DNA of 64,000 nucleotides from an uncultured Bacilli bacterium. GTDB lineage: Bacteria > Bacillota_I > Bacilli_A > RF39 > UBA660. Positions 57,667 through 60,994 of the stretch are shown here, piece after piece. The notes under the pieces were generated by a model. It did no database searches, was not told where the DNA came from, and worked only from the letters and a program-made list of their open reading frames with translations. The DNA is taken from positions 1 to 64,000 of the forward strand of contig CANRPY010000005.1 of the NCBI GenBank assembly GCA_947632595.1, given 5' to 3'. Within the stretch, counting starts at the first letter, position 1. The number at the start of each line of letters is the position of its first letter. The position numbers and the translations under genes are program-made.

Positions 57667-57825
57667 CTATTTTTCAACGAAAAAATACAAATTTCGGATA
57701 AAAATACCACAATATTTTCCAACTTGTAATAGAAAACGAATGAGTAAAGTCACTATAGGTAGAGAAAGATAGATACCAACTAGTTTTCCAAGAAAAATGA
57801 TTCCTGTTTTTATTTTAGAGGACAT
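57667..57825 (-). CDS. Putative bacteriocin immunity protein (52 aa, hydrophobic and cationic)
   Basis: Translated by hand: MSSKIKTGIIFLGKLVGIYLSLPIVTLLIRFLLQVGKYCGIFIRNLYFFVEK; start overlaps the 3' end of peptide B; not in the ORF track. Confidence 0.65.
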   Translation of the reverse strand: MSSKIKTGIIFLGKLVGIYLSLPIVTLLIRFLLQVGKYCGIFIRNLYFFVEK

Positions 57826-57983
57826 AGGTCGTCCTCTGCAATTCTTCTGATTCCAGATCCTAATTCATATCCTGCTTCTTGAATTAGCTTAATAACATTT
57901 ACAATTGCGGAAATAATTGGACCTGATACGGAAGAATCCCCTCCTTGTATTTTTACAAGTTCTTCTTTTTTCATTTCTGTCAT
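57810..57983 (-). CDS. Double-glycine-leader bacteriocin-like peptide B
   Basis: MTEMKKEELVKIQGG|DSSVSGPIISAIVNVIKLIQEAGYELGSGIRRIAEDDLCPLK; GxxxG (GYELG); ATGA overlap with peptide A. Confidence 0.85.
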   Translation of the reverse strand: MTEMKKEELVKIQGGDSSVSGPIISAIVNVIKLIQEAGYELGSGIRRIAEDDLCPLK

Positions 57984-58126
57984 GAGCCACACTCCTTTGG
58001 ATTGGTTATTCCTTCCATTACTCCTGATAAGAATATGATTGCTGTTGCAACAGCGATTCCTATCCAGATAAAGGGTGTAGAGCCTCCTCTTATTTGTTCT
58101 AATTCTTCTGGTTTTAATTTTACCAT
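57980..58126 (-). CDS. Double-glycine-leader bacteriocin-like peptide A
   Basis: Translated by hand: MVKLKPEELEQIRGG|STPFIWIGIAVATAIIFLSGVMEGITNPKECGS; GxxxG (GVMEG); not in the ORF track. Confidence 0.85.
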   Translation of the reverse strand: MVKLKPEELEQIRGGSTPFIWIGIAVATAIIFLSGVMEGITNPKECGS

Positions 58127-58534
58127 TTAATCACCACCCCATATATTTATTAACATTTCTAAGCCATTTATTTTTTTCTTACGAATGGATACTTCCATGA
58201 TATCTTCTTGTTGTTTTCCTTTGTCTATCTCTAACTCTACTTTATCATATTCTTTTTCTCCTACCCTATAGTCTTCTTCTCTAACTATCTTAAATTTTAT
58301 TTTTTCTTTGTTCTTATAAAAATGATTGTTTTCATATAATGTTTTTTTCTCTTCTTTCTCTACAAGACAAAAGGAATGATTCTTATCAATTTTCATTAGA
58401 GTCAGTCTTTGATATTGGCTAATTCTCACCTTTTCTAATCCTGTAAAAAAGAGTAATTCTAGGATTCCTAAAATTCCAATTACTAAAAATACGGCTGTTG
58501 TTTTTTCATAATTTTTCATTTTCATAAATGACAC
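58127..58534 (-). CDS. Short membrane-anchored bacteriocin export accessory protein
   Basis: 135 aa, one N-terminal TM (TTAVFLVIGILGILELLFFTGL), extracytoplasmic beta-rich remainder; between exporter and peptides. Confidence 0.6.
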   Translation of the reverse strand: MSFMKMKNYEKTTAVFLVIGILGILELLFFTGLEKVRISQYQRLTLMKIDKNHSFCLVEKEEKKTLYENNHFYKNKEKIKFKIVREEDYRVGEKEYDKVELEIDKGKQQEDIMEVSIRKKKINGLEMLINIWGGD

Positions 58535-60629
58535 CTTTTTCTAATTTTAAAATACGATCAAATTGTTTCTTATTATGAAACCTATGAGATATTACAATAA
58601 TTGTTTTTTCTTTTAAATAGGAAAATACATTTTCTAGTATCTTCTTTTCTCTTTGAATATCTACTTGTCCTAATGCTTCATCTAAAATATAAATACTTGT
58701 TTTTCTTAATAGGGATCTTGCTAAAATGATTCTTTGACGTTCTCCACTACTTAGGTTAAATCCATTTTCTTCGATAATGGAATCTAATGTCATGTTTTTA
58801 CTTTTTAACATTTCTTCTACAAAACAAATTTTACAGACTTCTTCTATTTCTTCTTTCTCATATTCTTGATAAAGACAAATATTGTTTTTTACACTATCTT
58901 GAAATAAATATTCATTTCCTGTTACATAAGTAATATTGGCACGAATATTTTGTAGATGATAATGGTTAATATCAATCTTTGCTATTTCAATACAACCATA
59001 TGGGACTTCAATATATCTCATTAGCATTTTCATTAATGTAGATTTACCAGAACCACTTTCTCCACTTAATAAGATTTTTTCTCCTTTCTTAATTTTTAAG
59101 TGTACGTCTTGTAAAATCTGTTTACTCCCTATTTCATACGTAATTCCTTTTAAGATGATATCTCCTTCTAAAAGATAGGGAAGATAAAAATAATTATTTT
59201 GAAATTTTTCTTCCTCTATCATAAATAATTCTTCTATTCTATCTAATGTTATTTTGTAGGATGGATAGTTGCTTATTAGATATAAGATATTCGTAAAACT
59301 ACTTATATAGTATCTAGATAAGGTCTCAAATAAGATTAATGTTCCAAGAGTCATTTTTTCTAGAATAACAGTATAAGTTCCTAGTGCAAATATTACTAGA
59401 TATAAAAGATCATTTATGATTCTTTTTTGGTAAGACTCTTTTTCACATTCTTTTGTGTATTGATAGGTATGCTCTTCTAATGCTTTAAAGTTTAAATCAA
59501 ACTTATCAATAAATCTTTTTTCTAGATGACTTCCTTTGATTGTGTCTACGTTACTGATTCCTTGTACTAAATAGGAATTTGCATTATCTTCTCTTTCTTT
59601 TACTTTTTTTAATTTCTGTTTCTTTTTCTTCTCCTCTATTATCGTTATGATTAATAGGAGTCCTAGAAAGAGATTTATTATGTTTGTTAACTTTTTTTCA
59701 TATTTTAACATGACTAAGAAAAAGGCTATACTTGAAAAAACATCTAAAGTAACTGTTGTAAAAAAAGAGGCAATATAATCTCTAATTTGTCCTAGATCTT
59801 GAAACCTAGATAGAACTTCTCCCGTTGTTCTATTTTTAAAATAGAGATAGGGAAGCAAAAGAATTTGTCGGTAAGTACTTGTCGTTATTTCTAAAGTAAA
59901 AAGACAACTCCATTTATTTAATAAAAGATTTCTTAGACTATTCATGCTATTTCTAAATAGATAAGCTCCTAATAGAAATAGACATATTGGTAATATATTA
60001 TCTGTTACATGGTAGTTAATTGCATACTCTAATAAGTATTTGAAATGAAAAGAGGTTATAATATTTAATAAAAAACAATTGATGGTTAGGAAAATGATGA
60101 ATAAAAATATTTTTTTATTTTCTTGATATTCTTTTTTTAACTGGTGATAAATTACATTCTTTTTTTTCATAATAGGAATTGTCTTTTTTGGCTTTAATAG
60201 TAAATAATGATTCGTTGATAGTAAGTGGTATTCTGCAAAAGAGATGGTTTTTTTGCCTTTTGCAGGATCCATTAAAACCACTTCTTTTTTCTTTGTTCGT
60301 ATCTTATAGATTACGACAAAATGTTTTCTTTTATTGGTTTCTATATGAGCAATACAAGGTAAATTTGTATCTTCTATATCTTCTAATGTTGCTGATACCC
60401 CTTGAGAAGTAAATCCCATTTTTTCTGCTGCTTCTAATAAGTTATATAGAGATACTCCTTCTTTTGTCGTATTTGTTAATTCTCTTAACTTTTCTTTCGG
60501 TACTTCTCCTCCATAAAACCGAATAATCGATAAGAGACAACAAACTCCACAATCTTTCATGCCATCTTGTAATACCACTTTCACTTTCTCTTCTTTCGCC
60601 TCCCATATTATTATTCCGTCTTTTTTCAA
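58506..60629 (-). CDS. Peptidase C39-containing ABC bacteriocin exporter (PCAT); probable true start GTG at 60584
   Basis: VVLQDGMKDCGVCCLLSIIRFYGG...KHFVVIYKI...DPA (C39), GESGSGKSTL, LSSGERQR, IYILDEAL. Confidence 0.95.
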   Translation of the reverse strand: MKKDGIIIWEAKEEKVKVVLQDGMKDCGVCCLLSIIRFYGGEVPKEKLRELTNTTKEGVSLYNLLEAAEKMGFTSQGVSATLEDIEDTNLPCIAHIETNKRKHFVVIYKIRTKKKEVVLMDPAKGKKTISFAEYHLLSTNHYLLLKPKKTIPIMKKKNVIYHQLKKEYQENKKIFLFIIFLTINCFLLNIITSFHFKYLLEYAINYHVTDNILPICLFLLGAYLFRNSMNSLRNLLLNKWSCLFTLEITTSTYRQILLLPYLYFKNRTTGEVLSRFQDLGQIRDYIASFFTTVTLDVFSSIAFFLVMLKYEKKLTNIINLFLGLLLIITIIEEKKKKQKLKKVKEREDNANSYLVQGISNVDTIKGSHLEKRFIDKFDLNFKALEEHTYQYTKECEKESYQKRIINDLLYLVIFALGTYTVILEKMTLGTLILFETLSRYYISSFTNILYLISNYPSYKITLDRIEELFMIEEEKFQNNYFYLPYLLEGDIILKGITYEIGSKQILQDVHLKIKKGEKILLSGESGSGKSTLMKMLMRYIEVPYGCIEIAKIDINHYHLQNIRANITYVTGNEYLFQDSVKNNICLYQEYEKEEIEEVCKICFVEEMLKSKNMTLDSIIEENGFNLSSGERQRIILARSLLRKTSIYILDEALGQVDIQREKKILENVFSYLKEKTIIVISHRFHNKKQFDRILKLEKGVIYENEKL

Positions 60630-60659
60630 ACATTCGGGTAAATTTTTAAAAAAAGCAAA

Positions 60660-60786
60660 AAAAAAAGAAGAGTACTTCTCTTCCGAACAAATTTCGTAAT
60701 TTGTTATTTAATCATGCGCGTGATAATGATTAACGTAACAAATCTTTCATAAAACTTTCGTTTTACTACAACGAAATCTGTTACGT
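60660..60786 (-). ncRNA. Structured leader RNA with alternative hairpins and terminator-like hairpin preceding the bacteriocin operon
   Basis: CGTAACA/TGTTACG enclosing TTTCGTT/AACGAAA; competing ATTTGTTATTTAATCAT/ATGATTAACGTAACAAAT; ACAAATT-TCGT-AATTTGT; then GAAGAG-loop-CTCTTC + T10 on minus strand. Confidence 0.6.
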
Positions 60787-60790
60787 ATCT

Positions 60791-60820
60791 ATCGTACCAT
60801 ATGGTTTCTATTTCAAGCAA
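60791..60820 (-). promoter_or_regulatory. Predicted extended -10 promoter for the bacteriocin operon leader
   Basis: Minus strand TTGCTT - 18 nt - TACGAT with TGG immediately before the -10. Confidence 0.5.
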
Positions 60821-60918: not shown

Positions 60919-60994
60919 TGGTGGAGCATAGCGGGATCGAACCGCTGACCTCCACGGTGCAAACGTGGCGCTCTCCCAGCTGAGCTAATGCCCC
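60919..60994 (-). tRNA. tRNA-Ala (anticodon UGC), CCA encoded
   Basis: GGGGCATTAGCTCAGCTGGGAGAGCGCCACGTTTGCACCGTGGAGGTCAGCGGTTCGATCCCGCTATGCTCCACCA. Confidence 0.98.

Follow-up and report, generated by a model that had tools for sequence, protein, structure and literature searches.

The window analysed here is a stretch of 64,000 nucleotides of DNA from an uncultured Bacilli bacterium. Between a tRNA-Ala gene (60922-60994) and a bacteriocin-export operon it contains a gene for a small structured RNA, which carries its own promoter and terminator (Table 1). Downstream of the exporter lie a gene encoding a protein of 135 aa and two genes for small peptides. The two peptide genes adjoin each other (57810-58126) and encode double-glycine-type leaders, and the 48-aa peptide among them matches the class IIb lactobin A/cerein 7B model; judged by these features, the pair is a possible two-peptide bacteriocin. 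Before the exporter start, in the window (around 60597-60617) and in relatives, AATAATA, an A-rich spacer and GGAGG are strongly conserved in any upstream context, and this stretch may be part of the exporter promoter or ribosome-binding region.

Table 1. Features of the small RNA locus and the target gene (window positions unless a contig is named)
Feature	Position	Strand	Basis or remark
Small RNA gene, about 130 nt, three-way junction and terminator	60657..60786	-	Folding, covariation, models R1/R2
RNA gene -35 element, TTGCTT	60815..60820	-	Read from sequence; TTGTTT-like counterpart in relatives, 16-18 nt spacing
Extended -10 element, TGG-TACGAT (TGGTACGAT), 5 nt before P1	60791..60799	-	Recurs in homologues
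P1, 5' strand (partner 60684-60697)	60771..60785	-	Pair probabilities 0.80-0.99; homologous helix covaries
P1, 3' strand	60684..60697	-	Fold of own sequence
P2 hairpin, GTAAAAC-GAAA-GTTTTAT	60749..60766	-	Own fold; P2 hairpin in folds of most relatives
P3 arm (hairpin 2 of the preliminary description), bears the invariant loop	60698..60744	-	Own fold; inner stem covaries
P3 loop TATCACGCGC, core T[AG]TCACGCG	60716..60725	-	Core invariant in all homologues
Intrinsic terminator hairpin, then ten T	60662..60683	-	MFE fold; terminator scan places hairpin at 60684-60666
C39-peptidase bacteriocin export ABC transporter, about 73 nt downstream of the RNA	58506..60584	-	Peptidase_C39 2.3e-33, ABC_membrane, ABC_tran
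Target gene in the window's own genome	G000:C29:8597-9358	-	Another contig than the window; 3' UTR complementary to P3 loop

The stretch 60786-60657 folds better than its shuffled versions (-36.0 versus -22.1 kcal/mol, z -4.35, 0 of 200 shuffles). The MFE and centroid structures both consist of one three-way junction, P1-P2-P3, and the terminator, whose hairpin has 7 pairs by the terminator scan and 9 pairs by MFE. The preliminary description had read this region as a leader of mutually exclusive hairpins. Its pieces are present (CGTAACA/TGTTACG, a hairpin 2 of about 17 bp, hairpin 3, the terminator hairpin and ten T), but their mutual exclusion does not describe the architecture: P1 pairs the 5' arm of its hairpin 1 with the 3' arm of its hairpin 3, so that these two hairpins are alternatives built from the two P1 strands, while P3 is hairpin 2, formed in full, and P2 (GTAAAAC/GTTTTAT), missing from that description, fills the junction. 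An alternative fold does exist in the window's own sequence: forcing hairpin 1 gives -32.3 kcal/mol, i.e. 3.7 kcal/mol worse, and requires the extended lower half of P3. The folds of the relatives show the three-way junction rather than this alternative.

The transcription start that the same description had proposed, at the 5' base of hairpin 1, fits the promoter, and relatives have a comparable -35/17/TGn-10 spacing. The spacer between the two promoter elements is 18 nt in the window. For most homologues, an arrangement of a -35, 16-18 nt and a TGn-10 sits 2-8 nt before P1; in G023 and G435 the automatic -10 pick was wrong, and the box can be made out by eye where it is expected.

Homologues were recovered by locating the orthologous exporter across the genus and reading upstream of it; DNA similarity alone gave mostly matches to poly-T terminators. 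The RNA is found as a single copy per genome in 23 of the 39 species of the genus that were analysed (including G007, detected by its sequence), as well as in 2 species of a sister genus. Model R1 detects the RNA in 13 genomes with E<1e-11 and, less strongly, in about nine others, and R1 and R2 match the own genome's RNA at E 3.1e-4 and 9.5e-6. Applied to 245 genomes of the family, R2 yielded one further true member, G435, which belongs to another genus; G672, from the same sister genus, was identified later (E 3.7e-7). Among 296 genomes of the class, R1 detected the RNA in no other genus, though this model performs poorly on divergent members. Weak model matches in G022, G010 and G026 turned out on inspection to be terminators without the core. 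An Rfam 15 scan of the window at the gathering threshold gives the tRNA only, and for 12 homologous loci the search down to E<=3 returns only tRNAs and chance matches.

We aligned 21 of the sequences structurally. The structure guided the fitting of this alignment, in which the row of the own genome is misfitted, with a P1 register that differs from the MFE; 93.3% of the pair cells are standard and both sides change at 14 of 21 pairs. The covariation score is 0.383 compared to 0.166 for shuffled data (0 of 500), and sliding the partners abolishes the signal. Compensatory changes in relatives, which the preliminary description had named as a check on the fold, are present: both sides change at all 7 pairs of P1, and the inner stem of P3 also covaries. 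The loop of P3 keeps its core without exception across the homologues.

We then searched TTRTCACGCG as an exact sequence in the 39 genomes. Among the sites outside the RNA, four lie 3' of genes from a single family, each in antisense orientation, meaning that the mRNA is complementary to the loop; the five others that we inspected are in coding sequence. The site lies around 5-60 nt after the stop codon and upstream of the terminator. The gene, preceded by an XRE-type HTH gene (HTH_3, 3.4e-17) in a two-gene operon, encodes a protein of around 250 residues that apparently has a signal peptide and that Pfam, NCBIfam and PDB place in no family with confidence. In the window's own genome, 14 nt (ATTATCACGCGCAT) of the loop arm are complementary to the 3' UTR of this gene, between stop codon and terminator.

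RNA and target co-occur within the genus: 17 genomes have both, 6 have the RNA and no detectable target protein, 5 the target only and 11 neither (p 0.011). The target protein has relatives in 41 of the 152 genera that were sampled from the taxonomic family. As it is distributed more widely than the RNA, the latter seems to have been added in this lineage. Across these 41 genera the secreted proteins share two conserved cysteines and a SYQHAM motif, and an HTH regulator gene often adjoins. The gene is duplicated in G060 (C20 and C41; L142, L162), where one copy is apparently disrupted by an internal stop and both retain a CGCGTGA site in the 3' UTR.

Complementarity between the RNA and the 3' UTR is found in 10 of the 17 same-genus genomes with both genes and in both sister-genus genomes, and extends over 10-15 nt or over two adjoining blocks. 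In clade A, each of the seven genomes with both genes is perfectly complementary over 12-15 nt, a length that exceeds shuffled UTRs in every genome (length p <= 0.002). In clade B it amounts to 11 nt in G016, 13 nt in G032 and 10 nt in G035, with none in the others. The seven same-genus genomes with both genes and no complementarity (G004, G005, G011, G018, G021, G025 and G028) retain the loop core.

The flanks of the match vary by lineage and agree inside a genome. For example, the pairs are CGCGCAT/ATGCGCG in the window's genome, ACTTATC/GATAAGT in G006 (ACTTATCACGCG/CGCGTGATAAGT) and GTCACGCG/CGCGTGAC in G023 (TCATATGTCACGCG/CGCGTGACATATGA); G023 has in addition, as read from the sequence, a second colinear block (GTCTACTTTGGTTAG in the RNA, CTAAC-AAAGTAGAC in the UTR). 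The summed duplex energy of own pairs is -403.2 kcal/mol compared to -334.8 kcal/mol for permuted pairs (0 of 200,000), in a permutation that took in all 19 genomes with both parts without selection and controls relatedness only coarsely. Restricting the permutation to within clades gives 23 of 200,000; taken separately, clade A has p 0.001 and clade B has 0.016. For the two sister-genus species by themselves, own and swapped pairs are not discriminated (p 1.0).

Separately, a AAGTAGACA motif recurs just past the target stop codon in the 3' UTRs of G000, G019, G013 and G016, and complements of it are present in the RNAs of G019 (TTGTCTACTTT) and G023. These sequences are a possible second contact.

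At the level of sequence, comparison shows a structured RNA gene with an invariant loop and coordinated complementarity. The core is kept even where the UTR site or the target is absent, and in G016 the UTR site ranks only around 35th genome-wide by duplex energy; the core therefore probably has further partners. The invariance of the core also favours a reading in which the 3' UTR of the secreted-protein gene is a sponge that titrates the RNA, with the real targets elsewhere, perhaps among bacteriocin-related mRNAs; a sponge is expected to leave the same signature of co-evolution. We nevertheless consider it unlikely, given that no second conserved partner emerged in the window, among the CGCGTGA sites of the own genome or from BLAST in clade B genomes, where nothing convincing was found. 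CGCGTGA does not occur elsewhere in the window, and its other sites in the own genome look like chance occurrences (a cold-shock-like CDS, a site opposite a tRNA and a membrane-protein-like CDS). We discarded the best non-self duplex in G016 (C6:~7050), since it lies opposite a coding sequence, and attribute to chance a Pseudomonadota record (L094) whose exact match to the core falls in an apparent coding sequence, hemD-like by eye.

The RNA is closely associated with the exporter. It lies upstream of the exporter orthologue in nearly all 25 genomes (in G018 the two are on separate contigs) and is present in 23 of 31 exporter-bearing genomes compared to 0 of 8 exporter-less ones (Fisher p 0.0002). 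The exporter also occurs on its own, e.g. in L042, L050 and L055, where tRNA-Ala and its terminator are directly upstream. The conserved position of the RNA, together with a structured junction, a terminator and the near-degenerate alternative fold of the window's own copy, would fit a cis-acting attenuator or riboswitch, which the preliminary description had put forward as one option; a three-way-junction aptamer and the terminator would then govern read-through into the exporter. The alternative fold, however, is not seen in the relatives, and no conserved sequence able to form an antiterminator was seen when their alignments were read. Nor is the RNA always in the leader of the exporter gene, being separated from it by one gene in G021 and by three tandem cassettes in G002. 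Moreover, the variable loop flanks co-vary with a distant mRNA, and this complementarity explains the invariant loop at least partly. Control by read-through is accordingly quite unlikely. The stand-alone small RNA that the same description had offered as its other option fares better, because the gene brings a promoter and a terminator of its own, its fold covaries, and some species have it apart from the exporter. The proposed control of bacteriocin export is not borne out by the partner that we detect, a 3' UTR belonging to a different operon, although only exporter-bearing genomes have the RNA.

The cassettes of G002 (L035, G002:C49, around 540-1300) are inserted between RNA and exporter, and at least two of them encode a 22-aa hydrophobic peptide, MSKKDFLIFLQIVIIILLIILN, which is type I toxin-like by eye.

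In the sister genus the RNA has its target nearby: G435 and G672 each carry a contiguous block of secreted-protein gene, HTH gene, RNA and exporter, in which the secreted-protein and HTH genes are divergent from the RNA and the exporter. In G672 the 3'-UTR site was noticed first and led to the RNA, which was then identified in the surrounding sequence. Complementarity in this genus spans the P3 5' strand (AGTCTTTATC/GATAAAGACT) and part of the core. As the HTH gene adjoins the target gene and, in these two genomes, the RNA, the shared sequence could be a protein-binding site in DNA or RNA, such as an operator of the neighbouring regulator with P3 as its inverted repeat, but this is very unlikely, since the 3'-UTR sites of G019 and G006 have no inverted repeat, the matches reach into lineage-specific flanks that agree inside a genome, and the covariation of P1 demands an RNA.

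With its conserved three-armed fold, a loop complementary to the tail of an mRNA, and the genes of both as neighbours in two related species, the gene therefore looks like an undescribed regulatory RNA. Based on these comparisons, we give a probability of around three in four to a trans-acting small RNA with co-evolving 3'-UTR complementarity that links the bacteriocin-export locus to the HTH/secreted-protein operon. The fuller proposal seems reasonably probable: an undescribed small RNA family which couples the two loci through pairing of its loop with the 3' UTR, the two halves co-evolving and lying apart in the own genus. The P3 loop would nucleate pairing with the 3' UTR of the target mRNA, in trans in the own genus, and pairing would spread from the loop into the P3 stem, so that P3 would have to open partly. 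For the regulator/secreted-protein operon, pairing may then mean altered stability or output and a tie to the bacteriocin-export locus. We claim no sign of regulation, because positive and negative effects are both known in parallel systems.

Little is known about the small RNAs that uncultured gut Bacilli possess, and, to our knowledge, few of the trans-acting RNAs described so far act on 3' UTRs. Here the structure, promoter, partner and co-evolution signal all come from comparative data alone, and the mechanism is directly testable. The RNA would connect a bacteriocin exporter with a regulator/secreted-protein pair whose protein relatives reach 41 of the 152 sampled genera.

Reviewed cases of pairing in trans include RsaI with the icaR 3' UTR in S. 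aureus and Spot 42 with the hilD 3' UTR in Salmonella (PMC7821165). They resemble the proposed system in that a trans-encoded RNA pairs with the 3' UTR of a regulator mRNA, the operon here containing a regulator gene. They differ from it in the linkage to a bacteriocin exporter, in pairing through an invariant hairpin loop and in the RNA and target being neighbours in a sister genus; we claim no relation in sequence. GadY-gadX and RatA-txpA (PMC5502269) are alike in that their small RNAs, encoded near the target gene, act at the 3' end of its mRNA. Those RNAs overlap their targets in cis, whereas here the genes do not overlap and are on different contigs in the own genome; unlike in a type I antitoxin system of the RatA kind, the target is a secreted protein of around 250 aa and not a small hydrophobic toxin. 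Riboswitches and attenuators with intrinsic terminators share the structured RNA and terminator upstream of a gene, while the RNA described here is separable from its downstream gene, has no antiterminator seen to be conserved and finds its partner elsewhere.
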